From positions 1 to 42,184 of the forward strand of contig OMTG01000018.1 of the NCBI GenBank assembly GCA_900313905.1: DNA of 42,184 nt, read 5' to 3'. Under the pieces are notes generated by a model. It had not been told where the DNA came from and did not search any database. It was given only the letters and a program-made list of their open reading frames with translations. The DNA is from an uncultured Actinomycetes bacterium. Lineage in GTDB: Bacteria > Actinomycetota > Coriobacteriia > Coriobacteriales > Atopobiaceae. The position numbers and the translations under genes were made by a program. This document shows, in pieces, positions 3,261 through 19,549 of the stretch. Position 1 is the first letter of the stretch; every line of letters starts with the position of its first letter.

Positions 3261-3320
3261 ACGCGGGCATGCCCTTCCAACGAGGTCAGAAATGGTCAAT
3301 AGGCAACACGCCATCTGTCA

Positions 3321-3349
3321 TTGTTGCACAGGTGGCCCGAACGTATAGT
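3321..3349 (+). promoter_or_regulatory. Putative sigma-70 type promoter of the PTS/glycoside hydrolase operon
   Basis: TTGTTG (3321-3326) and TATAGT (3344-3349) are separated by 17 bp. They lie in the gap shared with the divergent AraC gene, 49 bp before the PTS start codon. The -35 matches the consensus in four of six positions, the -10 in five of six. Confidence 0.55.
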
Positions 3350-3360
3350 TCTTTCAGCAA

Positions 3361-3381
3361 GCGCACCGATGAGCGGTGCGC
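3361..3381 (+). promoter_or_regulatory. 5'-UTR hairpin directly before the PTS ribosome binding site
   Basis: GCGCACCG (3361-3368) and CGGTGCGC (3374-3381) form a perfect 8-bp stem with a 5-base loop. It ends immediately before the AAAGGAGG site (3382-3389). It could stabilise the message or influence translation. It does not resemble a BglG/LicT antiterminator site, and there is no U-tract. Confidence 0.45.
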
Positions 3382-3397
3382 AAAGGAGGAGGAAAGA

Positions 3398-4771
3398 ATG
3401 GCAAGAAATTGGGGTGAGCTCGCCAGCAACATCGTGGAGCTGGTGGGCGGCAAGGACAACATCGCGTCCTATACGCACTGCATCACGCGTCTGCGCTTCC
3501 GTCTGAAGGACGAGGGCAAGGCAGACGACCAGAAGATCGGCCAGCTCGAGGGCGTCATCCAGGTCATGCATGCCCAGGGCCAGTATCAGGTCGTCATCGG
3601 CACGCACGTGACCGACGTCTACGACGAGGTCGTGAAGATCCTGCCGGATCTCGCAGGTGGCGAGGTCGAGCAGGACGACGAGCAGGGCGGCAACATCGTC
3701 GGCAAGCTTCTCGATATCATCACCGGCATCTTCACGCCGTTCCTGCCGGCCTTCAGCGCCGCAGGTCTTCTGAAGGCGCTTGCCGTCATGTGCAGCTCCT
3801 TCGGCTGGCTCGATACCGCAAGCTCCACCTACGTGATCCTCAACTGCATCGGCGACGGCCTCTTCCAGTTCCTGCCGATCATCCTGGGCTACACGGCCGG
3901 CAAGAAGTTCGGCTGCAACCAGTGGATCACGATGGCTGTGGCTGCCTTCCTCGTGCACCCGAACATGGTCGCCCTCGGCACGACCTTCCCGGATGGCGCC
4001 GACTTCTTCGGCATCCCGGTGACGCTCCCTGCTTCCGGCTATCTCCAGTCCGTCATCCCCATCATCCTCGCTGCCTACCTGCAGTCCTGGATCGAGAAGC
4101 CCCTCAAGAAGCTTCCTGACACGATCCGCGGCCTCTTTGGCGGCATGCTCGACCTCTTCCTCACCGGCATCATCACCCTCTTCGTGATTGGCCCTGTCTC
4201 CAACGTGATCTCCAACGCTATCGCTTCCGGCCTCATCTGGCTGCTCTCCACAGTGCCTGCCCTCGCCGGCCTCCTTATCGGCGGCCTCTGGCCCGTCCTC
4301 ATCATCTTCGGCATGCACTGGGCCTTCATCCCTGTCATCATCAACAACATCGCCACCCTTGGCTACGACATCATCCTCCCGATCACCGTCGGCACGAACT
4401 ACGCGGTGGGCGCTGTCTGCCTCGCCATCTTCCTGAAGACGAAGAATGCCACCGTCAAGGAGACCTCGCTTGAGTGCCTCGCCTCCGCCTGGCTGGGCGG
4501 CATCACCGAGCCGGCCATCTACGGCCTGCTGCTCAAGTACAAGAAGCCCTTTGCCGTCATGGCTGTCTCCTGCGGCGTCTGCGGCGCCTTCGCGGCTGGC
4601 TTCGGCATGCATCAGGCTGCCCTGATCACGACCTCTGTGATCACGCTCCCGGCTGTCTATGCCATGTGCGGCCTGCCTGAGATCATCGCCCTGCTGATCG
4701 CTGTCGTGATCTCCTTCGCAGGTACCATCACGGTCGGCTACAGCGACAAGATGCTCCTCGAGTCTGAGTAG
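3398..4771 (+). CDS. PTS beta-glucoside-type permease, EIIBC
   Basis: A 457-residue membrane permease of the glucose/beta-glucoside PTS superfamily that imports and phosphorylates a sugar. Residues 1-90 are the EIIB domain, with phosphorylated Cys28 in the THCITRLRF motif. The rest is EIIC, about ten membrane segments, containing the conserved GGITEPAIYG motif near residue 368. The EIIA domain found at the C-terminus of BglF-type proteins (about 625 residues) is absent and no EIIA gene is in the window, so an EIIA elsewhere must serve it. ATG 3398 is preceded by AAAGGAGG at 3382-3389; earlier codons in frame would run back through the promoter. First gene of the locus; the substrate is probably a beta-linked oligosaccharide, judged from the hydrolases after it. 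Confidence 0.95.
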   Translation: MARNWGELASNIVELVGGKDNIASYTHCITRLRFRLKDEGKADDQKIGQLEGVIQVMHAQGQYQVVIGTHVTDVYDEVVKILPDLAGGEVEQDDEQGGNIVGKLLDIITGIFTPFLPAFSAAGLLKALAVMCSSFGWLDTASSTYVILNCIGDGLFQFLPIILGYTAGKKFGCNQWITMAVAAFLVHPNMVALGTTFPDGADFFGIPVTLPASGYLQSVIPIILAAYLQSWIEKPLKKLPDTIRGLFGGMLDLFLTGIITLFVIGPVSNVISNAIASGLIWLLSTVPALAGLLIGGLWPVLIIFGMHWAFIPVIINNIATLGYDIILPITVGTNYAVGAVCLAIFLKTKNATVKETSLECLASAWLGGITEPAIYGLLLKYKKPFAVMAVSCGVCGAFAAGFGMHQAALITTSVITLPAVYAMCGLPEIIALLIAVVISFAGTITVGYSDKMLLESE

Positions 4772-4785
4772 GACCTTTCCTCCTT

Positions 4786-4871
4786 CAGATGGCCGGTGCC
4801 GCAAGGTGCCGGCCATCTGGCTCTGCTGCCATCGCTTGGCTGGGCACAGCTTCCCTGCGTCCAGCCAAGCG
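4786..4871 (+). promoter_or_regulatory. Two intercistronic hairpins between the PTS and GH3 genes
   Basis: The 152-bp gap holds two strong dyads. CAGATGGCCGG (4786-4796) pairs with CCGGCCATCTG (4809-4819). CGCTTGGCTGG (4833-4843) pairs with CCAGCCAAGCG (4861-4871). Neither is followed by a U-tract, so they look like processing or mRNA-stability elements, or a leaky terminator, rather than a full stop. Confidence 0.5.
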
Positions 4872-4923
4872 GTTGCGGGCAGCGGCATCTCCCGGCAATG
4901 CGCTCTTCGAGAAAGGATCTGCC

Positions 4924-7146
4924 ATGGACACAGCACCGCTTCGCCAGCTCTTGGACGAGATGACCATAGATGAGAAGATCGGGCAGCTTGTGCAGCTCTC
5001 CGGCGACTGCTTCGGCGGCGGCGACATCGCGACGGGCCCCGCCGCGAAGATCGGCGTGACGCAGGAGGACATCGACCGCTGCGGCAGCGTCCTCAATGTG
5101 CTCGGCGCCGACGAGATCCACCGCATCCAGGATGCCTATCTCGCGAAGAGCCGCCTCCACATCCCCCTCCTCTTTATGGCAGATGTGATCTACGGCTACC
5201 AGACCTGCTATCCCTCGCCGATCGGCCTGGGCTGCACCTGGGACCCCGAGATGATCGAGGGCGACTACCAGGTGGTCGCCGAGGAAGCCCATGCAGATGG
5301 CTGCATGGTCACCTTCAGTCCCGCTGTCGATGTGGTCCGCGATGCGCGCTGGGGCCGGGTCGTCGAGATGCCGGGAGGTGAGGACCCCTATCTGGGATCG
5401 CGCTTCGCCGAGGCGATGGTGAAGGGGTTCCAGCAGGGGCTCGATGAGGGGCAGGGCGTTGCCTCCTGCGTCAAGCACTTCGCCGGCTACGGCGCTGCCG
5501 AAGGTGGCCGCGAGTACAACACGGTCGATATGAGCGAGAGGCGCTTTCGCCAGGACTACCTGCCGCCGTACAAGGCTGCCATCGATGCTGACGCGAAGAT
5601 GGTGATGACAAGCTTCAACACGGTGGATGAGGTGCCGGCGACGGCAAACCGCTGGCTCATGCACGATGTGCTGCGCGAGGAGTGGGGCTTCGATGGCCCC
5701 CTCATCACCGACTATGCCGCCATCCTCGAGCTCATGAACCACGGCGTCGCTGCCGACAAGGACGAGGCATCGAAGCTCGCGCTCGATGCCACCGTCGATA
5801 TCGATATGAAGACGGACTGCTATGCCCACAGCCTGAAGCGCCTCGTGGAAAAGGGGCGGATCTCGGAGCAGCAGATCGATGAAGCCTGCTGGCGCGTCCT
5901 TTCCCTCAAGAACGAGCTCGGCCTCTTCGAGGACCCCTACCGGGGCTGCACGACCTCCGATGCTGCGCGTGCCATCATGTGCACGCCCGAGAAGCTCAGC
6001 TCTGCCCGGGCGTGCGCCGATGAGGCGATGGTGCTCTTGAGGAACGAGGGGCAGGTCCTGCCGCTTGCGAAGGAGGGCGGGCGCCTTGCGCTCGTCGGGC
6101 CCTATGCGGACAGCAAGGAGATCGTCGGCATGTGGGCGATCCATGCGGACCGGAGCCACTCCTGCACGGTGAAGGAGGCCTTCGACGCTGTGCTCGGGGA
6201 GGGCGCCTACGTCTATGCGAAGGGCTGCGATGTCCTGGGTCCCGAGGAGTATGGCACGCTCGGCGAGTTCGCACGCTTCGCGGGCGGAGGAGAGCCGGCA
6301 GAGGACCAGGAAGCCCTGATTGCTGAGGCTGTCTCTGCCTGCGCAGACGCAGATACGGTCGTGCTCTGCCTCGGCGAGCATCCCCTGCAGTCGGGCGAGG
6401 CAGGGGCACGTACGAAGCTCAGGCTTCCAGCTCAGCAGCAGGAGCTCGTGCGCCGGCTCCACGATCTGGGCAAGCGGACCATCTGCGTCCTCTTCGCGGG
6501 ACGTCCACTCGTCCTGACCGATATCCTGCCCTATGCAGATGCCCTCCTCATGGCGTGGTGGCCAGGTACCGCTGGCGGAGAGGCCGTGGCCGATATCCTC
6601 TTCGGCGATGCGAACCCTTCTGGCAGGCTCACGATGAGCTTCCCGGCAACCGAGGGGCAGCTGCCGCTCTACTACGCCCAGTTCCCGACGGGACGCCCGG
6701 CAGGCAAGAACCACACGGGCCGCTTCGTGACAGGCTATCTCGATGCCCCGAACTTCGGACTCTATCCCTTCGGCTATGGGCTCTCCTACCACACGAGCGC
6801 ACTCTCGGACCTGACGCTCGACCGTGAGGTGCTGCATCCGGGCGAGGAGCTGCATGCAAGCATTACCCTCGAGAATGAGGGACCGGTCGCAGGCACCGAT
6901 GTGGTCCAGCTCTACCTGCATGACTGCACAGGGTCTGTCACCCGTCCGATCAAGGAGCTCAAGGGCTTCGAGCGTGTCACGACTGAGTCAGGGGAGCGCC
7001 GGGAGGTCTCCTTCACGATCACGGAGGAGATGCTGCGCTTCTGGCGGCGGGACATGACGTTCGGGTCGGAGCCAGGAAGATTCGATGTCTACGTGGGGCT
7101 CGACAGCCAGCGGGTCCTGTCCGCGTCCTTCGAGCTGGAAGCATGA
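4924..7146 (+). CDS. GH3 family beta-glucosidase/beta-xylosidase
   Basis: A 740-residue glycoside hydrolase family 3 enzyme releasing terminal non-reducing beta-linked sugars. The N-terminal barrel (residues ~1-300) has the KHFAGYGAAEGGREYNT substrate-binding stretch at 184-200 and the nucleophile Asp263 in GFDGPLITDYAA. The alpha/beta sandwich follows, then a fibronectin-III-like domain near 630-705. No signal peptide is seen, so it is probably cytoplasmic. ATG 4924 has an AAAGGA site about 9 bases upstream; the frame is open back to 4789 but that part is intergenic hairpin. Its stop overlaps the next frame (ATGA at 7143-7146), indicating translational coupling to the GH43 gene. A standard GH3 does not cleave 6-phosphorylated sugars, so it may act on oligosaccharides from another importer. 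Confidence 0.95.
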   Translation: MDTAPLRQLLDEMTIDEKIGQLVQLSGDCFGGGDIATGPAAKIGVTQEDIDRCGSVLNVLGADEIHRIQDAYLAKSRLHIPLLFMADVIYGYQTCYPSPIGLGCTWDPEMIEGDYQVVAEEAHADGCMVTFSPAVDVVRDARWGRVVEMPGGEDPYLGSRFAEAMVKGFQQGLDEGQGVASCVKHFAGYGAAEGGREYNTVDMSERRFRQDYLPPYKAAIDADAKMVMTSFNTVDEVPATANRWLMHDVLREEWGFDGPLITDYAAILELMNHGVAADKDEASKLALDATVDIDMKTDCYAHSLKRLVEKGRISEQQIDEACWRVLSLKNELGLFEDPYRGCTTSDAARAIMCTPEKLSSARACADEAMVLLRNEGQVLPLAKEGGRLALVGPYADSKEIVGMWAIHADRSHSCTVKEAFDAVLGEGAYVYAKGCDVLGPEEYGTLGEFARFAGGGEPAEDQEALIAEAVSACADADTVVLCLGEHPLQSGEAGARTKLRLPAQQQELVRRLHDLGKRTICVLFAGRPLVLTDILPYADALLMAWWPGTAGGEAVADILFGDANPSGRLTMSFPATEGQLPLYYAQFPTGRPAGKNHTGRFVTGYLDAPNFGLYPFGYGLSYHTSALSDLTLDREVLHPGEELHASITLENEGPVAGTDVVQLYLHDCTGSVTRPIKELKGFERVTTESGERREVSFTITEEMLRFWRRDMTFGSEPGRFDVYVGLDSQRVLSASFELEA

Positions 7147-7160
7147 GAGAGGATCGAGCC

Positions 7161-8612
7161 ATGAGCAGACGGCAGATCGTGAACCCCTACCTCCCGAGCT
7201 GGGAACATACCCCCGATTGCGAGCCCCATGTCTTCGGGGACCGGCTCTATGTGTATGGCAGCCATGATGCAGCGGATGGGACCTCCTACTGTGTCGGCGA
7301 CTATGTGGCCTGGTCGGCACCGGTGGACGACCTCACCCACTGGAGCTTCGAGGGCATCATCTATACGCGCTGGGACGACCCCACGAACACGGAGCATGCG
7401 ACCTATGCGGCACCGGATGTGTGCCAGGGACCGGATGGCCGCTATTACCTCTACTATTTCTATGGGTTCACGGCGATCGGCGTGGCCGTCTGCGACGAGC
7501 CGGCAGGGCATTTCCGCTATCTGGGGCAGGTGCACCTTTCTGACGGCACGCTGATCACGCCCGGTGCCGGCATCGGCGCCCCCTTCGACCCTGCCATCTA
7601 TGTGGAAGGGGACCGGGTCTGGCTCTACTACGGCTTCGGCGCACGTCCCTCCGATGCCGCACGCTTCGGGGCGCCTGATGAGATGCTGGCAGGCTCCTAT
7701 GTGGCTGAGCTTGAGGGCGACATGTGCACGATCAAGGGTGAGCCGAAGCGGTTCGTGCCGGGCATGCGCGATGCTGCAGGCACCAGCTTCGAGGCGCATC
7801 CCTTCCTCGAGGCATCGAGCTTCCGGAAGATCTTCGGGCACTACTACTTCATCTATTCCTCTGCCCAGGGCCATGAGCTCTGCTGGGCGAAGACCTCGGC
7901 TCCGGATGTGCCTCCGACCTTCGGCGGCGTGATCGTCTCGAATGGCGATGTGGGCCTGCATGGGATCGAAGATGAGAAGGATGCCATCTTCTATCTCGGC
8001 AACAACCACGGCAGCCTCGTCCAGGTTGGCGCGAAGGCCTATGTCTTCTACCATCGCCACACGGAAGGCACCCAGTTCTCCCGCCAGGACTGCGCGGAGA
8101 AGGTCGAGATCGCACCGGATGGCACGATCGCCCAGGCGGAGATAACGAGCGAAGGCCTCAATGGAGGGCCGCTCGACCCTGCCCGCGAGATTCCTGCCTA
8201 TGCCTGCTGCCATCTGCGGAGCAAGGAGGGGATCCTCCACTTCTCGAGCCGCACGCCCTGGAATGAGCGGCATCCAAAGATCTGCGAAGAGGTGCTCTCT
8301 GGCGTGCCGACTTCGGCCAGGTCCTTCGTCTCGAACCTGCGCGATGGAGCAGAGGTGGGCTTCAAGTACCTTGCCTTCACGGGTTCGGAGAAGCGCCTTA
8401 TCGCTGAGGTGCGCGGGAACGCAGGAGGTGCGCTCGTTGCCCATCTCGATGCACCGCATGGTCCCGTCATAGCGAAGCTCGCAGTGAAGCCCGAAGAATG
8501 CTGGCACCAGGTCGCATCCGAGCTTCTTGCACCCGTCTCAGGCACCCATGCCCTCTACTTCGTGTATGAGGGGGAAGGGGCTGCCGACTTCGTGGCCTTC
8601 CGCTGCGAATAG
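7161..8612 (+). CDS. GH43 family glycoside hydrolase with C-terminal CBM-like domain
   Basis: A 483-residue GH43 enzyme, a family of beta-xylosidases, alpha-L-arabinofuranosidases and related enzymes. It starts with the typical NPYLPSWEHTPDCEPHVFGD block; the propeller continues through YVYGSHD and TYAAPDVCQGPDG (general-base and pKa-modulating Asp candidates). The last ~120 residues end in a jelly-roll-like pattern (GTHALYFVYEGEGAADFVAF), like CBM6-type modules. An in-frame ATG at 7143 overlaps the GH3 stop, but ATG 7161 has an AGAGGA site 7 bases upstream and puts the conserved NPYLPSW at residues 8-14. No signal peptide. Specificity cannot be assigned from sequence alone. Confidence 0.92.
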   Translation: MSRRQIVNPYLPSWEHTPDCEPHVFGDRLYVYGSHDAADGTSYCVGDYVAWSAPVDDLTHWSFEGIIYTRWDDPTNTEHATYAAPDVCQGPDGRYYLYYFYGFTAIGVAVCDEPAGHFRYLGQVHLSDGTLITPGAGIGAPFDPAIYVEGDRVWLYYGFGARPSDAARFGAPDEMLAGSYVAELEGDMCTIKGEPKRFVPGMRDAAGTSFEAHPFLEASSFRKIFGHYYFIYSSAQGHELCWAKTSAPDVPPTFGGVIVSNGDVGLHGIEDEKDAIFYLGNNHGSLVQVGAKAYVFYHRHTEGTQFSRQDCAEKVEIAPDGTIAQAEITSEGLNGGPLDPAREIPAYACCHLRSKEGILHFSSRTPWNERHPKICEEVLSGVPTSARSFVSNLRDGAEVGFKYLAFTGSEKRLIAEVRGNAGGALVAHLDAPHGPVIAKLAVKPEECWHQVASELLAPVSGTHALYFVYEGEGAADFVAFRCE

Positions 8613-8626
8613 ATGCGAGAGGATAT

Positions 8627-8678
8627 GGCAGGGAGGTACGATTCGGTCAATCCGATGGTGCCTCCCTGTCATTGTCTT
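8627..8678 (+). terminator. Terminator-like hairpin after GH43
   Basis: GGCAGGGAGGTAC (8627-8639) pairs with GTGCCTCCCTGTC (8658-8670) over 13 bp with two G-U pairs. ATTGTCTT follows. It may reduce read-through into the next hydrolase gene, which has its own ribosome binding site 118 bp downstream. Confidence 0.55.
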
Positions 8679-8730
8679 GCCTGCATACACCCCATAGAAT
8701 CATTTGTGAGATGCAGCGAAAGGATGTCAC

Positions 8731-11415
8731 ATGAGAACAATCGAACAGGTTCTTGCGGGCACGTCGGAAAACCACATCGCACCCTTCCTCTGGGTCCATG
8801 GGGAAGAGCACGAAGAATATCGGAAGACCATCGAGGCGATGCATGCGGCAGGCATCGGGGCCCTCTGCATCGAGGCGCGCCCCCATCCTGATTTCAACGG
8901 CGAAGGATGGTTCTCGGACATCGCCTTCATCCTCAAGATCTGCAAAGCTCTCGATATGAAGGTCTGGCTGCTCGATGACAGCCACTTCCCGACGGGCTAT
9001 GCGGATGGTGCCGTGATGAAGTACCATCCGGAGCGCCGCAAGCGCTACCTGAAGCTCCAGACCTTCGATGTGATGGGGCCGCTCGCAGGCTCGCAGCTCG
9101 ATCTCAAGTATGCCCTGATGGATCCTGAAGCAGAAGTGCTGGCAGTCGTGGCCGAGCGCAGGAGCGAAGATGATGTGCCGATCGTCTCTGGCGCCATCGA
9201 CCTCACCGGCTCCCTCCATGAGCGGGATGACTGGCAGACCGGAAAGCCTGAGTCAGACCCGCTTGGCAGGCCGACCGGAAGGATCGAGGGGAAGGCGAAG
9301 GTCGTCGATCTGGATCTTCCGGAAGGCGCCTGGTACATCCAGGTGCTCACGGTCAGCTACCGGGGCGGCGAGAAGGAGACCGAGGGCTTCCTGAACCCGC
9401 TCGAGAAGGAGGCCACCCAGATTCTCCTCGATACGGTCTATGAGCCGATCTTCGAGCACTTCGGCGATGAGTTCGGGAAGACCTTCCAGGGCTTCTTCTC
9501 GGATGAGCCCCGTTTCGGCAACATCCACGGGTCGGAGGATGCCTCGATCGGCAGGAATCCCCAGATGGTGCTCCCCTGGAGCGATGAGGTGGCGCCGTGG
9601 CTGGTGGAGGCCCTGCCCAAGGAGCTCGGCATCGCATCGGTACACGACCTGCTGCCCTATCTGCCCCTCCTCTTCGTCGACGATGAGGAGGGGGCGCTCT
9701 GCCATGCGCTCCGCTATGCCTATATGGATGTGGTCTCCGCGCTCTACAGCGAGAATTTCGATGGAGCGATCGCTGATTGGTGCCATGCCCACCATGTCCG
9801 CCATATCGGGCATACGATCGAGGACAACAATGCCCTGGCCCGCCTGGGCTACGGCGCTGGCCACTATTTCCGTGCCCTTGCCCATGCAGACATGGCAGGC
9901 ATCGATGTGGTGATGGAGCAGCTCATGCCGGGCTACGACAGGGGACTCTTCCGGGCATTCCACAAGCCGGGCTGGGACATGGAGTTCTTCACCTATGTCC
10001 TCGGCAAGATTGGCGGATCGCTTGCCCACATCGACCCGAAGAAGCAGGGGCTCTGCATGGCAGAGGTCTTCGGCGCCTATGGCTGGGGCGAAGGCAATCG
10101 CCTCATGAAATGGATCGCAGACTACATGCTCGTCCGTGGCGTCAATGTCTTCGTGCCGCATGCCTTCAATCCGAAGGCCTTCCCGGATGGGGACTGCCCG
10201 CCGCACTTCTATGCGCACGGGATGAACCCGCAGTATCGCGAGTGCGGCCGTCTGATGGCCTATGTGAACCGCACCGCTGCCCTCCTCTCTGGCGGCAGCT
10301 ACAACGCGCCGGTCGCGCTCTACTTCAATGCGGAGGGCGAATGGTCAGGAGACTGGCAGCTGGCGCAGAAGCCGGCAGCCGAGCTTGCCCGCCACCAGAT
10401 TGAGTATGACTTCGTCTCTGCGGACTGGCTGCTCTCCTCTGAGCTTGTGGAGACGGAGGCAGGTCTTCGCCTCGAGGTCGGGAAGGAGCGCTTCTCTGCC
10501 CTCGTCCTGCCGTGGAGCGAGGCTCTGCCGGAGGCGCTGCTCAAGAAGGTGGCAGAGATCTCGAAGGCGCTGCCGGCCTTCTTCGTGGACGGCCTGCCTG
10601 TCCGCACAAGCGAGGGGCATCCAGTGCCGGCGCTCAATCGGACGCAGGTCGTATCGCTCGAGGACCTTGCTGCCACGCTCGTGGCGGCAGGCTTGCGCGA
10701 ACTTGCGCCGTCTGCAGACGAGCCGTGGCTCCGCACCTACCACTACGTGCTGGATGGGGTGGATGAGTACTTCCTCGTGAACGAGCATCCCTCGAAGCGC
10801 ATCCAGTGCAGGCTTGAGGGGGCACAAGAAGGCTACCGCTACTGCTACGACGGATTCACGAATGAGCTTGTGGCAGATCCGGATGCCTTTGCGCTCGATC
10901 TGGCACCCTATGGCTCGAAGCTCATCCTGGTCTCGAAGGAGCCGCTCGACGCCCTGCCAGAAGCCCCTGCCTTCGAGGCTGCCTCAGAGCGGACGCTTGG
11001 CTCCTGCACGCTTGCAACCTCGTATTTCGAGGAGCAGGGGTGTGCCTGGAGCGAGCCGGAAACGCTGGCAGAGCCGGTCTTCGTGACGTCGCTGCCGGGC
11101 AAGGAGACGTTCTGTGGCATGGCACGCTACACGTTCAATGTCACCTGCTCCTCAGAGGATCTTGGCGGACGTGCCTTCCTCGAGCTTGCTGGCGTCAGCG
11201 AGTCTGCCCACGTGTACGTGAACGGGAAGGACTGCGGCTGCTGCATCGTGCCCGACTACCGTTTCGAGGTTGGAAGCGCCCTTGTGGCGGGCAGCAACAC
11301 GGTCGTGGTGGAGCTTGCAGGCACGCTCGGGCGGGCGATGGATGATTTCGTCGGCCAGTTCCTGCCGCTCGAGCCTTTCGGCATGACCGGCGCGAAGCTC
11401 ATCTTCGGCAGATAG
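8731..11415 (+). CDS. Large putative glycosyl hydrolase (GH106-like)
   Basis: An 894-residue protein resembling the large hydrolases related to GH106 alpha-L-rhamnosidases. Residues 1-100 form a barrel start (GALCIEARPHPDFNGEGW, VWLLDDSHFPTGYADG). A FFSDEPRFGN block around Glu259 is a good catalytic-acid candidate. The C-terminal ~130 residues look like a GH2-type sugar-binding jelly roll (YTFNVTCSSEDLGGRAFLEL, then VYVNGKDCG). It has no signal peptide. ATG 8731 follows AAAGGATG with suitable spacing. Family membership is inferred from the domain layout and the DEP motif; substrate is unknown. Its place between GH43 and a GH35-like gene suggests it removes a side-chain sugar, possibly rhamnose, from the same glycan or glycoside. 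Confidence 0.75.
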   Translation: MRTIEQVLAGTSENHIAPFLWVHGEEHEEYRKTIEAMHAAGIGALCIEARPHPDFNGEGWFSDIAFILKICKALDMKVWLLDDSHFPTGYADGAVMKYHPERRKRYLKLQTFDVMGPLAGSQLDLKYALMDPEAEVLAVVAERRSEDDVPIVSGAIDLTGSLHERDDWQTGKPESDPLGRPTGRIEGKAKVVDLDLPEGAWYIQVLTVSYRGGEKETEGFLNPLEKEATQILLDTVYEPIFEHFGDEFGKTFQGFFSDEPRFGNIHGSEDASIGRNPQMVLPWSDEVAPWLVEALPKELGIASVHDLLPYLPLLFVDDEEGALCHALRYAYMDVVSALYSENFDGAIADWCHAHHVRHIGHTIEDNNALARLGYGAGHYFRALAHADMAGIDVVMEQLMPGYDRGLFRAFHKPGWDMEFFTYVLGKIGGSLAHIDPKKQGLCMAEVFGAYGWGEGNRLMKWIADYMLVRGVNVFVPHAFNPKAFPDGDCPPHFYAHGMNPQYRECGRLMAYVNRTAALLSGGSYNAPVALYFNAEGEWSGDWQLAQKPAAELARHQIEYDFVSADWLLSSELVETEAGLRLEVGKERFSALVLPWSEALPEALLKKVAEISKALPAFFVDGLPVRTSEGHPVPALNRTQVVSLEDLAATLVAAGLRELAPSADEPWLRTYHYVLDGVDEYFLVNEHPSKRIQCRLEGAQEGYRYCYDGFTNELVADPDAFALDLAPYGSKLILVSKEPLDALPEAPAFEAASERTLGSCTLATSYFEEQGCAWSEPETLAEPVFVTSLPGKETFCGMARYTFNVTCSSEDLGGRAFLELAGVSESAHVYVNGKDCGCCIVPDYRFEVGSALVAGSNTVVVELAGTLGRAMDDFVGQFLPLEPFGMTGAKLIFGR

Positions 11416-11508
11416 CGAGCAATCGGTTGGATGCGAGGCCTGCAGGCTGCGCCAGCTGCGGGCTTCGTTTGTGCCTCATGAGACGGGGGACATCAGAGAG
11501 GAATGATG

Positions 11509-13098
11509 ATGGGGATGATTGAGGAAGAGCCCCTCTTTGTGGTGGATGGCAAGCCATTCGTGGCCTTGGGCGGAGAGGTGCACAACTCGTCCAGCTCGGA
11601 TGCGCCCACGATGGAGAAGGCCTTCGTGAAAGCAGAGGAGCTCGGCCTCAACACCATCGCTGCTCCCGTCACCTGGGAGCTTCTGGAGCCCGAAGAGGGC
11701 GTCTTCGATTTCGCGCAAGCAGATGATCTCCTTTCCCAGGCACGTGCCCATAGGATGCACCTCATCCTGCTCTGGTTCGGCACCTGGAAGAATGCCCAGG
11801 GCTTCTATGCCCCTGCCTGGGTGAAGAAGGATCCTGTCCGCTTCTGGCGTGCCGAGCCTATCCGGGGGAAGCGCCAGATCATGATCGAGCGCTACCACGC
11901 GGTGTATGGGACCCTGAGTGCGCTCTGCGAGGAGACGATGGAGGCAGACGCGCGTGCCTTCGCTGCCCTGATGCAGCACCTGAAGGAGACAGACGGCGCA
12001 GAGCATACCGTGATCGCCATCCAGGTAGAAAACGAGTGCGGCCTCATGGTCGCAGCGCGGGAACACTCCGAGGTGGCAGACGCGCTCTTCGCAACTGAGC
12101 AGGTGCCCCGTGAGCTCCTCTCTGCCCTGAAGGAGGCGGAGGACCTGTCCCAGGATGTGCAGGACATCGTGGCATCCTGCCGTGAGGGGAGCTGGGCTGA
12201 GGCCTTCGGCGAGAACGCTGTGGCAGACGAGCTCTTCCAGGCCTGGCATACGGCGTGCTTCGTCGAGCGGGTGGCAGCAGCAGGAAAGCAGGCCTACAAG
12301 CTTCCGATGCTCGTGAACTGCTGGCTCGACAAGGGCAAGCCAGCCGGCGCCTACCCTTCAGGTGGTCCGGTCTTCCGCATGCTCCCGGTCTGGAAGGTAG
12401 CCGCCCCTTCGATCGATATGATCTGCCCTGACATCTATGTCCGGAACTTCTGCGAGATCTGCGACATCTACCATACCGAAGCCAACCCCCTGGGCATCGT
12501 CGAGACCGCGACCCACAGCTATCTCGGGCCCCGTGCCATCTGGGCAGTCTGCCATCACCATGCCCCGGTCTTTGCGTCTTTCGGCTTCGAGGAGATGGGC
12601 GAGCCCTTCACGGCGACCCAAGGCTTCCTCTTCGGCATGGATGTGACCGACCCGGCGCTCTCCACGCCGCAGCCATGCGCAGCCTACCGCAAGACAATGG
12701 AGTGCCTCTCTGGCATGCTCGAAGCGCAGCGGATTTGTGGTGGAGGGATGCTCGACGCGGTCATCTCCGAGCAGGGGCTTGCGCAGGAGCTTCGCTTCGG
12801 CGATGCGGTCCTGAAGATACAGTTCGGAGAGAAGGTGCCCGGCGCTGTGGCAGTGCTGACACTCGGCTGGGACAAGGAGCAGAGAGTCGCCAATGCGCTG
12901 ATCCTGGCATCAGGCGCCAGCCTCTCCTTTGCATCGGCAGAGGAGGTGCGGCCCTGCATCGATGTGCTTGCCCTCGAGGAGGGGAAGGTCGAGGATGGGA
13001 GCTGGAAGCGGGGGCGGCGCCTCAACGGCGACGAGCTCCAGATCCTTTCGGTGGATGAGCCGACGCTCCTTCGCGCCTCGGTCTTCATCTATGCCTGA
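11509..13098 (+). CDS. GH35-like beta-galactosidase (DUF5597-type)
   Basis: A protein of about 529 residues with a clan GH-A barrel. Near the N-terminus is the substrate-binding turn FVALGGEVHNSSSSD. IAIQVENECG near residues 169-178 matches the QVENE acid/base motif of GH35 and related DUF5597 beta-galactosidases. The C-terminal ~150 residues form the accessory domain. Three ATG codons stack at 11503, 11506 and 11509; the last has the best spacing (6 bases) from AGAGAGGA at 11495-11502, and ATG 11515 is also possible. No export signal. Last gene of the glycan locus before a strong terminator. Exact linkage specificity is not deducible. Confidence 0.8.
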   Translation: MGMIEEEPLFVVDGKPFVALGGEVHNSSSSDAPTMEKAFVKAEELGLNTIAAPVTWELLEPEEGVFDFAQADDLLSQARAHRMHLILLWFGTWKNAQGFYAPAWVKKDPVRFWRAEPIRGKRQIMIERYHAVYGTLSALCEETMEADARAFAALMQHLKETDGAEHTVIAIQVENECGLMVAAREHSEVADALFATEQVPRELLSALKEAEDLSQDVQDIVASCREGSWAEAFGENAVADELFQAWHTACFVERVAAAGKQAYKLPMLVNCWLDKGKPAGAYPSGGPVFRMLPVWKVAAPSIDMICPDIYVRNFCEICDIYHTEANPLGIVETATHSYLGPRAIWAVCHHHAPVFASFGFEEMGEPFTATQGFLFGMDVTDPALSTPQPCAAYRKTMECLSGMLEAQRICGGGMLDAVISEQGLAQELRFGDAVLKIQFGEKVPGAVAVLTLGWDKEQRVANALILASGASLSFASAEEVRPCIDVLALEEGKVEDGSWKRGRRLNGDELQILSVDEPTLLRASVFIYA

Positions 13099-13127: not shown

Positions 13128-13167
13128 GTGTCCTGCGCTTTCTTTCGGGAAACGCAGGACACTTTGC
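13128..13167 (+). terminator. Rho-independent terminator ending the glycan locus
   Basis: GTGTCCTGCG (13128-13137) and CGCAGGACAC (13153-13162) form a perfect 10-bp stem; the intervening CTTTC/GAAA can extend it. TTTGCC follows. Confidence 0.75.
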
Positions 13168-13240
13168 CGATGCGGTGTCCATATAACGGTGCTCCGGGGT
13201 ATCCTTTCTCGTTGGTGCCAATAGGAAAGGAGGTGTCAGA

Positions 13241-15085
13241 ATGGCAAGAAAGCTTACTGAAGAAGAGCATGCACTGATGGAGCTTGTGCGTGATGGAATC
13301 TCGCCGGTCATCCCTTCTGACAAGAGGAGCGCTGCATCAGGCATTGCGAGCGCACTGGTTCGTTTCGGGAATGGAAGGATCTCCGCATCCGATCTCGATG
13401 AGCTGTTCGGCAAATATGGCCTGGATGAGTCCGATGCCACAGATGCGATCACCAAGGCTGTCCTCGAGCAGCAGGGAGAAGGCAGCTACACGATCAACGC
13501 TTGGCTCTGCGATGAGGCGGCGAAGCGTGCAAGCGAGGCCGAGGCAGCAGAAGCCGATGAGGCAGAGGCTTCCGATGTGGAGGAGCAGGCAGACATCCAG
13601 CCTGCATCCGATGCACCTGCTGAGGAGGAAGCCTCCCCATCCGATGCGCCAGCTGAGGATGTGCCTGCCGAGGAGGCAAAGCCCAAACGCCGCCGGAGAA
13701 GGTCGCGCAAGGATACGGCTGCAAGCGAGCCTGCCCCCGAGGAGGCAGCTGCCGCCGAAGCGGAGTCCCCTGCAGAGGAGGGCGAACCTGAGGCAGATGC
13801 CGAGGCGAAGCCCAGGCGTCGCAGGAGAAGGCAGCGCAAAGATGCAGATACGAGCGAGCCTGCACCGGAGGAAGCGCCTGCTGCCGCAGAAGCGGAAGCT
13901 CCTGCCGAGGACAGCGAATCAGGCGAGGGAGATGCAGAGGCAAAGCCAAAGCGCCGTCGCCGCCATCGCGTGCGCAAGGCGAAGGCAGACCACGAAGAGG
14001 AAGCCCCCACTGAAGAGGCTCCTGAAAGCGTGAGCGAAGCCGATGCAGCAGCTCCTGCTGCAGATGCCCCTGCAGCAGAGGAAGAGCCGGAGGAGGCTGC
14101 CGCTGAGGCAGAGGATGCCCAGGCTGAAGAAGCCGAAGAGGATGAGGCCTTGGGAATCGATGGGGGAGATGAGGAAGCGGAGGCTCCGCAGGAGCCGGTC
14201 CGCAAGATTGTCCCGCCCCGGCCAGCCCATTCCCGCGATCTCCGCAAGATCCCGTATGTCCGTCGTGGCGGCGAGAACGACGCCGAGATCAGGCAGAAGA
14301 TCGTGCAGCTCGACCAGCGTTTCTGGATGAACGGATGGCTGCTTTCGCATCCGAAGGCCTATACGCTCTTCGAGCATGAGATCGTCACGATGAACGACAT
14401 CCTGCAGGACGGGATGCTTCCGGGCGACATCACCCGCCGCCAGCTCGCCTACCAGATGGGTGGCGACGAGAAGTTCTTCGAGTACGGCTCCGATGGATTC
14501 CGTCTCCTCCGTGCCCTCGGCATGGAGGACATCATCCGCCATCGCCCGCTCCCGAAGTCCGATCTGGTCTTCCATGCGCCGCGGCGCAGGAAGCACATGC
14601 GGGTGCTCGTGACCGAGAACCTCGATCCCTATCTCGACGTGCATGACCTGATGTACGAGGATGGGCGGTCGACCATCCTGGGCGAACGCATCCATGCGGT
14701 GGTCCTGGGTGGCGGCATGCCGGTCGTCGAGCATAACCGCCTGGCTGCACTGCTCGACAGCCTGGGTGCCGATACGGTCGAGGTGCTCTACTGGGGCGAT
14801 ATCGACCGCGCTGGCCTCAACATCATGCAGCGTCTCGCGGACGAGCTGAAGGACCGCTACGAGATCAAGCCGTTCGCCCCTGCCTACCGTCTCATGGTGG
14901 ACAAGGCGATGGAGCGGTTCCCGGATCCTTCCGACAACGAGAACACCAAGCAGATCAACATCGAGGACTACGACGTCGAGGTGCTCTGCTCGGTCATGAG
15001 CGACGAGGAGGCAGCCTATGCCCGCTCCGTCGTCGAAGCTTGCGAGCTCATCCCGCAGGAGATCCTGACGAAGCAGGACCTGTAA
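13241..15085 (+). CDS. Orphan JetD/DUF2220-type Toprim-like protein with charged repeat linker
   Basis: A 614-residue three-part protein. Residues 1-95 look folded and have no family I recognise. Residues ~95-320 are a low-complexity Ala/Glu-rich linker with three repeats of about 44 residues, starting at AKP 146, 189 and 234; each opens with a basic run (KPKRRRRRSRK type) followed by an acidic Pro/Ala/Glu stretch. Residues ~325-614 resemble the C-terminal Toprim-like domain of the Wadjet protein JetD: VLVTEN with Glu459, AVVLGGGMP near 486-494, YWGDIDRAGL with Asp520 and Asp522, and a final IPQEIL. In JetD this domain is the DNA-cleaving subunit of an SMC-based plasmid-defence complex. No jetA, jetB or jetC is nearby. 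The start has an ideal AAAGGAGGTG site. Function unknown; DNA or RNA cleavage is inferred from the fold only. Confidence 0.8.
   Translation: MARKLTEEEHALMELVRDGISPVIPSDKRSAASGIASALVRFGNGRISASDLDELFGKYGLDESDATDAITKAVLEQQGEGSYTINAWLCDEAAKRASEAEAAEADEAEASDVEEQADIQPASDAPAEEEASPSDAPAEDVPAEEAKPKRRRRRSRKDTAASEPAPEEAAAAEAESPAEEGEPEADAEAKPRRRRRRQRKDADTSEPAPEEAPAAAEAEAPAEDSESGEGDAEAKPKRRRRHRVRKAKADHEEEAPTEEAPESVSEADAAAPAADAPAAEEEPEEAAAEAEDAQAEEAEEDEALGIDGGDEEAEAPQEPVRKIVPPRPAHSRDLRKIPYVRRGGENDAEIRQKIVQLDQRFWMNGWLLSHPKAYTLFEHEIVTMNDILQDGMLPGDITRRQLAYQMGGDEKFFEYGSDGFRLLRALGMEDIIRHRPLPKSDLVFHAPRRRKHMRVLVTENLDPYLDVHDLMYEDGRSTILGERIHAVVLGGGMPVVEHNRLAALLDSLGADTVEVLYWGDIDRAGLNIMQRLADELKDRYEIKPFAPAYRLMVDKAMERFPDPSDNENTKQINIEDYDVEVLCSVMSDEEAAYARSVVEACELIPQEILTKQDL
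13676..13985 (+). repeat. Three in-frame ~130-bp imperfect tandem repeats in the JetD-like gene
   Basis: Repeat units begin at 13676, 13805 and 13940. Each encodes a basic cluster (AKPKRRRRR or AKPRRRRRR) followed by an acidic stretch such as SEPAPEEA. The third is shorter and more diverged. Spacings of 129 and 135 bp are multiples of three, so copy number can change without breaking the frame. Confidence 0.75.
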
Positions 15086-15104: not shown

Positions 15105-15147
15105 CAGCTGGGGCGCATCTTCCTTTGGGGAGGTGCGCCTCTTCTTC
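15105..15147 (+). terminator. Terminator after the JetD-like gene (copy 1 of a repeated hairpin)
   Basis: GGGGCGCATCTTCC pairs with GGGGAGGTGCGCCTC, with G-U pairs, followed by TTCTTCT. The element closely matches the hairpin at 19584-19624 after the ATPase_2 gene, in the same orientation, including the flanking CTGGGGCGCA. Confidence 0.7.
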
Positions 15148-18079: not shown

Positions 18080-18118
18080 AATGCATTCTTTGTGGTATCG
18101 AGAGAGGAGCGAGGGACC

Positions 18119-19549
18119 GTGGGCAGATTTGTCGGCAGGACCAGGGAACTTGCAGCGCTGAGGCAGCATTATGCTACAGGCCGGTTCGAGATGGTTGTTG
18201 TCTATGGGAGGCGACGCCTGGGAAAGACCATGCTGCTTACCGAATTCTCCAAAGGAAAGCGCTGCCTCTTCTTCACAGCCACCGAGAAGTCCGACACAAT
18301 CAATCTTGCGGAGTTTTCGAGGGCGGTTGCAGAGTTCTTTGCACTGCCGGGCATCACCTTCAGCTCCTGGATGGATGCGCTCCGTTTCGTGGCTGACCAT
18401 GCCAGAGATGGATCAGAACCGCTTCTCTTCATCTTTGATGAATTCCCTTATGCAGCGAAGGCGAACCCTTCGCTTCCCTCGATGCTGCAGCAGCTTATTG
18501 ACCGCAGGCTGGCTGATGCTGATATGACGCTCATCCTCTGCGGGAGCAATCAGGGTTTCATGGAAAGCGAGGTGCTGGGGGAGTCTAGCCCGCTCTATGG
18601 GCGTCGTACGGCGCAGATCGAGCTCCATCCCTTTGACTGCTTCGATGCCCACCTCATGCTTCCCTCAGCCGATGCGGAACAGGCAGTCACCTTCTATGCG
18701 ACCTTCGGGGGTACTCCGTACTATCTGGCGCAGATTCGGCCAGACGAAAGCTACGCCGAAAATGTGGCGCGGCTCTTCTTCGATCCATCGGGCCTGCTCT
18801 ATGCAGAGCCGCAGATGCTCATGCGCCAGGAGCTCATGGAGCCTGCGCTCTATATGTCCGTGCTTGATGCGATTGCATCAGGGGCAACGAAGCCGCAGGC
18901 GATTTCCGAGCGGTCGGGCGTGGCGAGGCAGTCTGTCGGCAGATATCTCAAGACGCTGGAATCGCTCATGCTCATCGAACGCAGGGTTCCTTTTGGAGAA
19001 AGTCTGGCACATTCCAGAAAGGGCATCTACCGTATCAAGGATCCATTCTTCGCGTTCTGGTATCGCTTCGTGAGCCCATATATCGCTGCGATTGAGACAG
19101 GCTCGGGCAGGGCTGCTGCAGGACAGCTTGTCGGAAGCCAGGCATTCGACACCTATGTCGGGGATCGATTCGAAGACGTGGCAATGCAGTGGGTGCAGCG
19201 CATGGGAGCAAGAGGGGAGCTTGGCTTCGCACCGGCAGTGTACGGCAAATGGTGGGGCACCGACCCCATCGTCCATGAGCAGGCCGATATCGATATTGTC
19301 GCAGCTGACGCGGAAAAGAGGCATCTCCTGCTCGGCGAATGCAAGTGGCGTGGCAGCTTCGACGAGACCCAGGCACTGCGCACGATTGAAAGGCGCAGCA
19401 CCATCATCGCAGGAGATGCCCAGAAGCGCTATGCGCTGTTCACGAAGAGGAGCGTGAGCGCAGCTACGGCAAAGAAAGCGGAGTCCCGCATGGACCTTCT
19501 CCTCGTGGACGCGGAGCAGATGTTCGCTGGCGAGTGCCACAGCGCGTGA
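18119..19549 (+). CDS. ATPase_2/DUF234 family AAA-type ATPase
   Basis: A 476-residue protein of the archaeal/bacterial ATPase_2 family. Walker A is YGRRRLGKTML near residues 31-41; Walker B is LLFIFDEFPYA near 103-113; a CGSNQGFM sensor-like segment follows. The middle has a winged-helix-like stretch (KPQAISERSGVARQSVGRYL). The C-terminus is a DUF234-like, nuclease-fold-like region with ADIDIVAAD and LLGECKW, a pattern recalling the D-(D/E)xK motif. Role in the cell is not established for this family; defence or DNA maintenance has been suggested for relatives. GTG 18119 is chosen (AGGAG 10 bases upstream, MGRFVGRTREL matches the family N-terminus); GTG 18092 is the alternative. Codon use is less GC-biased than its neighbours, which fits horizontal acquisition. 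Confidence 0.88.
   Translation: MGRFVGRTRELAALRQHYATGRFEMVVVYGRRRLGKTMLLTEFSKGKRCLFFTATEKSDTINLAEFSRAVAEFFALPGITFSSWMDALRFVADHARDGSEPLLFIFDEFPYAAKANPSLPSMLQQLIDRRLADADMTLILCGSNQGFMESEVLGESSPLYGRRTAQIELHPFDCFDAHLMLPSADAEQAVTFYATFGGTPYYLAQIRPDESYAENVARLFFDPSGLLYAEPQMLMRQELMEPALYMSVLDAIASGATKPQAISERSGVARQSVGRYLKTLESLMLIERRVPFGESLAHSRKGIYRIKDPFFAFWYRFVSPYIAAIETGSGRAAAGQLVGSQAFDTYVGDRFEDVAMQWVQRMGARGELGFAPAVYGKWWGTDPIVHEQADIDIVAADAEKRHLLLGECKWRGSFDETQALRTIERRSTIIAGDAQKRYALFTKRSVSAATAKKAESRMDLLLVDAEQMFAGECHSA

Follow-up and report, generated by a model that had tools for sequence, protein, structure and literature searches.

A conserved JetD-family protein that stands alone in the Atopobiaceae

The window examined here, the whole 42,184-nucleotide stretch of contig OMTG01000018.1 (assembly GCA_900313905.1) from an uncultured Atopobiaceae bacterium of the order Coriobacteriales, carries a gene for a 614-residue protein that, judged from its sequence, truly belongs to the JetD nuclease family, is conserved, and stands alone (Table 1). 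An initial annotation of this DNA had described the gene as an orphan. That description holds in that the gene stands alone, and fails in that it is no oddity of one genome, being instead a conserved stand-alone gene of the Atopobiaceae and Coriobacteriaceae. What is new here is thus the existence of a conserved family in place of an isolated orphan, together with its N-terminal domain and a parallel set of solitary proteins that combine a JetD1-type core with an IHF domain. We found no account of a stand-alone JetD in the literature searched.

Table 1. Features of the JetD-family gene and its flanks, and two parallel JetD1-type genes (window positions unless a locus is given; aa, amino acids)
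Feature	Position	Strand	Basis or remark
Perfect 10-bp inverted repeat GTGTCCTGCG/CGCAGGACAC, then TTT	13128..13162	+	3' of upstream glycosidase gene; sequence reading
Ribosome-binding site AAAGGAGGT	13226..13234	+	6 nt 5' of ATG; read from sequence
Stand-alone JetD-family gene, 614 aa	13241..15085	+	ATG start; start agrees with conserved MARKLT of homologues
Conserved N-terminal domain, residues 1-92	13241..13516	+	Folded-side composition, hhalign, dN/dS
Charged low-complexity linker, residues 93-330	13517..14230	+	Charge-hydropathy calculation
129-bp (43-residue) tandem repeat, 2.2 copies, bearing KRRRRR blocks	13673..13956	+	Score 317
JetD3-like core (residues 347-614), comprising the middle/CAP region and the Toprim domain	14279..15082	+	PADLOC JetD3 match, hhalign
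RRQLAYQMGGDEK motif (Arg400, Tyr404, Glu410, Lys411)	14438..14473	+	No variation across 37 Atopobiaceae/Coriobacteriaceae rows
Glu459, first Toprim acidic residue	14615..14617	+	Alignments
Asp520-x-Asp522, Toprim DxD	14798..14806	+	Alignments
Pro605-Gln606-Glu607	15053..15061	+	Glu607 aligns with last conserved JetD Glu; compared with type I JetD EQE
Terminator-like hairpin, 14 pairs	15110..15141	+	25 nt past stop codon; terminator scan
Stand-alone JetD1-type protein with IHF domain	L208:8468-10621	-	Order-wide JetD_C search
Stand-alone JetD1-type protein with IHF domain	L209:8217-10619	-	Order-wide JetD_C search

The JetD core and its active site

The hidden Markov model search that the initial annotation had proposed gives a match to the Pfam JetD_C profile (PF09983) at 31.5 bits, above the cut-off of 22 (E = 1.4e-7), and this is the single PF09983 match in the genome; the DUF2399 profile just reaches its cut-off. 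The PADLOC JetD3 profile (PDLC00592) aligns residues 347-614 with its positions 78-338 of 346 (E = 4.9e-35), a homology that spans about 44% of the protein and not merely the C-terminal third to which the JetD match had first been confined. Profile comparison with hhalign joins the core of the window family to that of genuine Wadjet III JetD at 99.85% probability (E 1.3e-30, 235 columns), and to type I JetD at 95% (E 3e-8), the latter restricted to the Toprim region. The JetD/DUF2220 motifs by which the protein had originally been recognized are indeed present, VTEN at residues 457-460, GGGMP at 490-494, YWGDID at 517-522, and IPQEIL at 604-609. Sequence searches of solved structures gave no significant JetD or MksG chain, with MksG 8b7f appearing at E 0.8 only, and a Toprim fold is predicted from family membership. 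Weak matches to the TIGR02679 and RNase E profiles were set aside.

Compared with JetD3 of Wadjet type III (for example, Pontibacillus WP_207531162.1), the window protein has in common the core at residues 347-614, the Toprim E, DxD, and xQE motifs, and some N-terminal similarity, but it is 614 rather than about 330-380 aa long, with a long charged linker between N-terminal domain and core, and it is chromosomal, vertically inherited, and without a JetABC operon. With MksG/JetD of Wadjet type I (Corynebacterium glutamicum MksG, PDB 8B7F) it shares the Toprim nuclease region and the catalytic Glu and Asp, whereas the N-terminal half cannot be aligned, the motif near the C-terminus is PQE in place of the type I EQE, and there is no MksBEF.

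E459, D520, D522, K411, and E607 are invariant in all three alignments that we made, of 21 mixed rows, 37 stand-alone rows, and 16 rows with Collinsella copies, the last at only 23-27% identity to the window protein. The acidic residues Glu459, Asp520, and Asp522, singled out from the beginning as the ones to follow, are therefore kept in homologs throughout. Stand-alone and Wadjet copies alike conserve E459, N460, D520, D522, R523, E410-K411, and P/x605-Q606-E607. In MksG, mutating E236 and D279, the equivalent Glu and Asp, removes most cleavage, and MksG cleaves plasmid DNA without MksBEF (PMC10123090).

The N-terminal domain and the charged linker

By composition the protein divides into a folded-type segment (residues 1-92), a linker (93-330), and a folded core (331-614). 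The initial annotation had joined a charged arm to a JetD core, which is correct as far as it goes, but it had missed the conserved N-terminal domain that precedes the arm. With hhalign this domain matches the N-terminal domain of the Collinsella proteins at 75% probability (E 2.6e-5, 84 columns) and, weakly, the N-terminal winged-helix region of JetD3 (26%, E 7e-4, 45 columns); a match to lactate dehydrogenase at E 0.16 was dismissed as chance. It is possibly winged-helix-like, a counterpart of the winged helix at the N-terminus of JetD. That the domain is common to Collinsella and has this weak link to JetD3 suggests that the window protein may represent a complete JetD whose DNA-binding head and nuclease core have been separated by an inserted linker.

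The linker contains 74 acidic and 33 basic residues, 38% Ala plus Pro, and 4% large hydrophobic residues, and is predicted to be disordered. Three basic blocks begin at residues 149 (KRRRRR), 192 (RRRRRR), and 237 (KRRRR), as had been noticed from the sequence, but the three tandem repeats then proposed amount at the DNA level to 2.2 copies of a 129-bp unit, the blocks beginning 129 and 135 nt apart, that is, two near-complete units and a partial third. This repeat has enlarged the arm of the window protein. Across Atopobiaceae homologs the linker ranges from 29 to 316 residues, some Collinsella linkers are longer still, and KRRRR blocks are present in only part of the lineages. With length so variable and the blocks so unevenly distributed, the charged arm is a lineage-specific accessory to the conserved N-terminal domain and core, and the central function cannot reside in it.

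Distribution, inheritance, and selection

Of 140 Atopobiaceae genomes, 46 have a strong ortholog, always in single copy and with a core identity of 41-84%, named carriers including Olsenella, Parafannyhessea, Tractidigestivibacter, Thermophilibacter, Collinsella massiliensis, and Candidatus Coprousia, and 9 further genomes of the same 140 contain a diverged JetD. A diverged relative of 525-820 aa is present in 31 of 43 Collinsella genomes, where the C. aerofaciens representative (WP_195568736.1) has so far been labeled only a hypothetical protein. Some copies sit on complete single-contig chromosomes. In a class-wide search of 296 genomes, matches were confined to the two families Atopobiaceae and Coriobacteriaceae. 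The JetD3 profile finds matches in 18 of 396 sampled Actinomycetota, and the examples inspected outside the order are compact proteins of some 330-360 aa, with a JetC-sized gene beside three of them. One Collinsella genome (G719) encodes a 379-aa, short-linker relative of the long Collinsella protein (L188:9316-10455, + strand), which is possibly near the ancestral form. Separately, an actinobacterial family (f59; L186, L187, and L189) has solitary JetD-like genes in which the Toprim motif is altered, VSGHE standing for VEN.D, and these are possibly inactive.

The gene was not found in 50,697 phage records. A single viral-contig match (L211, IMG/VR 2788500460) is 100% identical to a genome record of Olsenella sp. 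An270, so a viral origin was rejected and the contig is probably host sequence within a provirus call.

Within the order the gene has been inherited vertically. One Atopobiaceae copy (L043) and the copies of the C. aerofaciens group lie downstream, in the same orientation, of alanine racemase (alr)-like, uracil-DNA glycosylase-like, and TsaE-like genes, and this common upstream trio points to one ancestral locus. In the tree, the copies of Olsenella, Thermophilibacter, and other Coriobacteriaceae form one clade (support 100/99), the solitary copies of another genus, g30, a second (100/99), and Collinsella a third (96/87). Reading frames are open in all copies, and both conserved parts of the protein are under purifying selection, with ratios of nonsynonymous to synonymous substitution (dN/dS) of 0.01-0.24 for the core over 14 informative species pairs and of 0.05-0.43 for the N-terminal domain.

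Absence of Wadjet partners

None of the window genes scanned is a jetA, jetB, or jetC neighbor, as had been remarked at the outset. The search of other contigs that was then suggested also came back empty, with no JetB-I/DUF4194 in the genome, no match to the JetC3 of the same family, and, above the cut-off of the SMC_N (structural maintenance of chromosomes, SMC) profile, only Smc, RecF, and RecN-like proteins besides ABC transporter-type ATPases. The PADLOC JetB3 and JetC3 profiles are uninformative in this respect, as they have no matches even in genomes with Wadjet III. DUF4194 occurs in 20 of the 140 family genomes, among them just one strong carrier (G006), and a JetC3 match in only 3 genomes of one genus, none of them among the 46. 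The neighborhoods of homologs contain no JetABC and no neighbor conserved across genera. Wadjet membership means that JetA, JetB, and JetC are encoded with JetD, and this arrangement was found neither in the neighborhoods nor, as far as DUF4194 and JetC3 report it, in the genome itself, so that the window protein is outside any Wadjet system by every test run. All six Wadjet III JetDs that we examined on plasmids or Streptomyces-type genomes, by annotation or clear gene order, are in A-B-C-D or D-A-B-C operons.

In G006 and in genomes of genus g30, a solitary copy exists alongside a separate, high-scoring, complete-looking type I Wadjet JetD, which implies that the solitary gene is not just a Wadjet subunit. 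The compact solitary JetD3-type genes of g30 (L052, L053, and L057, seen over 9-10 kb) adjoin housekeeping pcrA/uvrD and mscS-like genes. A UvrD/Gabija-like pairing suspected at L052 proved to be the housekeeping helicase pcrA with uppP, glycerate kinase, and mscS as neighbors, and a suspected Wadjet-like operon near L036, L040, and L044 is actually a 2-hydroxyacyl-CoA dehydratase activator-like protein with a TetR regulator.

Parallel JetD1-type proteins with an IHF domain

Two further Atopobiaceae proteins, of 717 and 800 aa (L208 and L209, from genera g16 and g11), have cores that match JetD1 (PDLC00526, E about 1e-56) with E, DxD, and EQE kept, and none of the nine neighbors scanned matches JetABC. 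Both have charged arms, and the RRRRRSRK blocks of the longer protein (KPRRRRRSRK) are nearly identical to those of the window protein. At their C-termini is an actinobacterial IHF domain (NF041260), scoring 66.6 bits in the longer protein and 47.4 in the shorter, the latter below the cut-off of 60, and Pfam H2TH_5 is over its cut-off in both. IHF is a nucleoid DNA-binding protein. These proteins resemble the window protein in having a stand-alone JetD core, a charged arm, and a putative extra DNA-binding domain in the same bacterial family, but they differ in having a core of JetD1 rather than JetD3 type and in the C-terminal placement of both arm and DNA-binding domain. That two JetD subfamilies should stand alone in one family, each with charged arms and putative DNA-binding domains, favors a nucleoid-tethered nuclease.

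Gene context

The ribosome-binding site of the JetD-family gene is graded strong. Upstream, across a gap of 142 bp, is a glycosidase gene on the same strand, and the inverted repeat that follows it is a possible weak terminator that the terminator scan did not report. That scan returned 1 hairpin where 1.3 are expected by chance, so its count is weak evidence despite the placement just past the stop codon; beyond this hairpin lies a convergent TetR gene. The JetD-family gene looks monocistronic. The upstream genes at 3269-13098, all in one orientation, encode phosphotransferase system (PTS) EIIBC and glycoside hydrolase (GH) proteins (GH3, GH43, GH106-like, and GH35/GH42-like), constituting a carbohydrate locus. 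Further downstream (18092-19549, + strand) is an ATPase_2 and DUF234 protein that matches the PADLOC candidate defense family PDC-S27 (E = 1.8e-56). The neighbors are metabolic genes, and the window contains no defense island.

What the protein may do

We favor, with a probability of about 0.62, the reading that this is a domesticated stand-alone JetD, that is, a chromosomal DNA endonuclease with a Toprim domain, belonging to the JetD lineage of type III Wadjet, that would act without the JetABC SMC motor. Two cores would dimerize via their Toprim domains, and the dimer would cleave double-stranded DNA using a divalent metal bound by Glu459, Asp520, Asp522, and Glu607, a mechanism suggested by the conservation of these residues with MksG and JetD, for which it is known. 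The N-terminal domain would bind DNA or a partner, and through the flexible charged linker it could keep the nuclease near DNA while both parts move independently. With no JetABC, the trigger would have to be some other cue. Strong bending or crossing of DNA could provide it, as could the housekeeping Smc complex. Most likely the protein serves to maintain its host's own DNA, and not as a mobile defense system. Several points weigh against this reading. The link between the N-terminal domain and the JetD winged helix is weak, the trees neither establish nor reject that all stand-alone forms arose once (approximately unbiased test, p = 0.25), and the gene is absent from many Atopobiaceae genera and from 12 of 43 Collinsella genomes, so it is not essential for the order. 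In addition, one report has JetD alone cutting DNA only at artificially high concentration (PMC10586767).

The same nuclease could instead work alone as an effector against plasmids or phages, with the sensor role of JetABC taken over by the N-terminal domain and arm. All characterized relatives, JetD and MksG, serve plasmid defense (PMC10586767, PMC10123090) and a patchy occurrence across genera would fit such a role, but vertical, single-copy inheritance with low dN/dS, metabolic neighbors with no defense island, and absence from the phage records, where the one viral-contig match is a stretch of the Olsenella host, make it unlikely. We regard it as improbable that the protein is a Wadjet JetD acting in trans with a JetABC encoded elsewhere. 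The genome is a draft of 181 contigs, and JetA, JetB, and JetC diverge fast, but its SMC matches, ABC ATPases aside, are only Smc-, RecF-, and RecN-like, DUF4194 and JetC3 are lacking, and the partners are likewise missing in 45 of the 46 carriers, several of which are complete genomes. The lack of partner genes would also be expected if the gene were the decaying remnant of a Wadjet system since lost, an idea that is hardly credible and that selection and conservation refute, given open frames in all copies, low dN/dS, and an active site invariant across two families.

The initial annotation had spoken of a stand-alone nuclease or topoisomerase-like protein, and while a JetD-family Toprim protein without JetABC is what we find, the topoisomerase half has not fared as well. 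Topoisomerase VI uses R102, Y106, and E202/D254/D256/E342 (PMC13040014), and the window protein presents R400, Y404, E459, D520/D522, and E607 in the same order and with the same R-x3-Y spacing, invariant in 37 rows; a winged-helix-plus-Toprim layout is also expected from JetD structures. The protein might then be a Topo VI-A/Spo11-like tyrosine transesterase, with Tyr404 catalytic and Glu607 the clasp partner of Arg400. The best hhalign segment to Topo VI-A sets TRRQLAY on TIRDLYY, but it is 7 columns long and not significant (E 0.14). The Topo VI-A profile TP6A_N has no match in the window genome, archaeal controls being positive (a Topo VI-B partner was not sought), and the Tyr404 position is Phe in 3 of the 9 Collinsella copies examined and in most solitary copies of g30. 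We lowered the weight of a Tyr404-based mechanism once Streptomyces Wadjet III JetDs in full operons showed Tyr at this position. The likeness thus depends on one Tyr that ordinary Wadjet JetDs also have, and we consider a tyrosine mechanism very improbable.

Tentatively, the domesticated nuclease of the window may be part of a wider pattern, in which Coriobacteriales have repeatedly converted JetD nucleases (the JetD3 type here and JetD1-IHF in sister genera) to enzymes bound to the nucleoid, for cutting or remodeling the host's own chromosome, doing housekeeping without an SMC motor and possibly, in the Olsenella group, by a Topo VI/Spo11-like tyrosine mechanism; we hold this to be doubtful. 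In current models, JetD is held in an inactive state, which ends only once the JetABC motor has drawn in a small circle. Common gut genera that have long retained a JetD-type nuclease on the chromosome, without JetABC, must control it by other means, and such a nuclease would offer a test of whether JetD cleavage is triggered by DNA bending alone or by the motor. A stand-alone JetD would also tie plasmid-defense nucleases to chromosome biology, much like Topo VI and Spo11 in archaea and eukaryotes.
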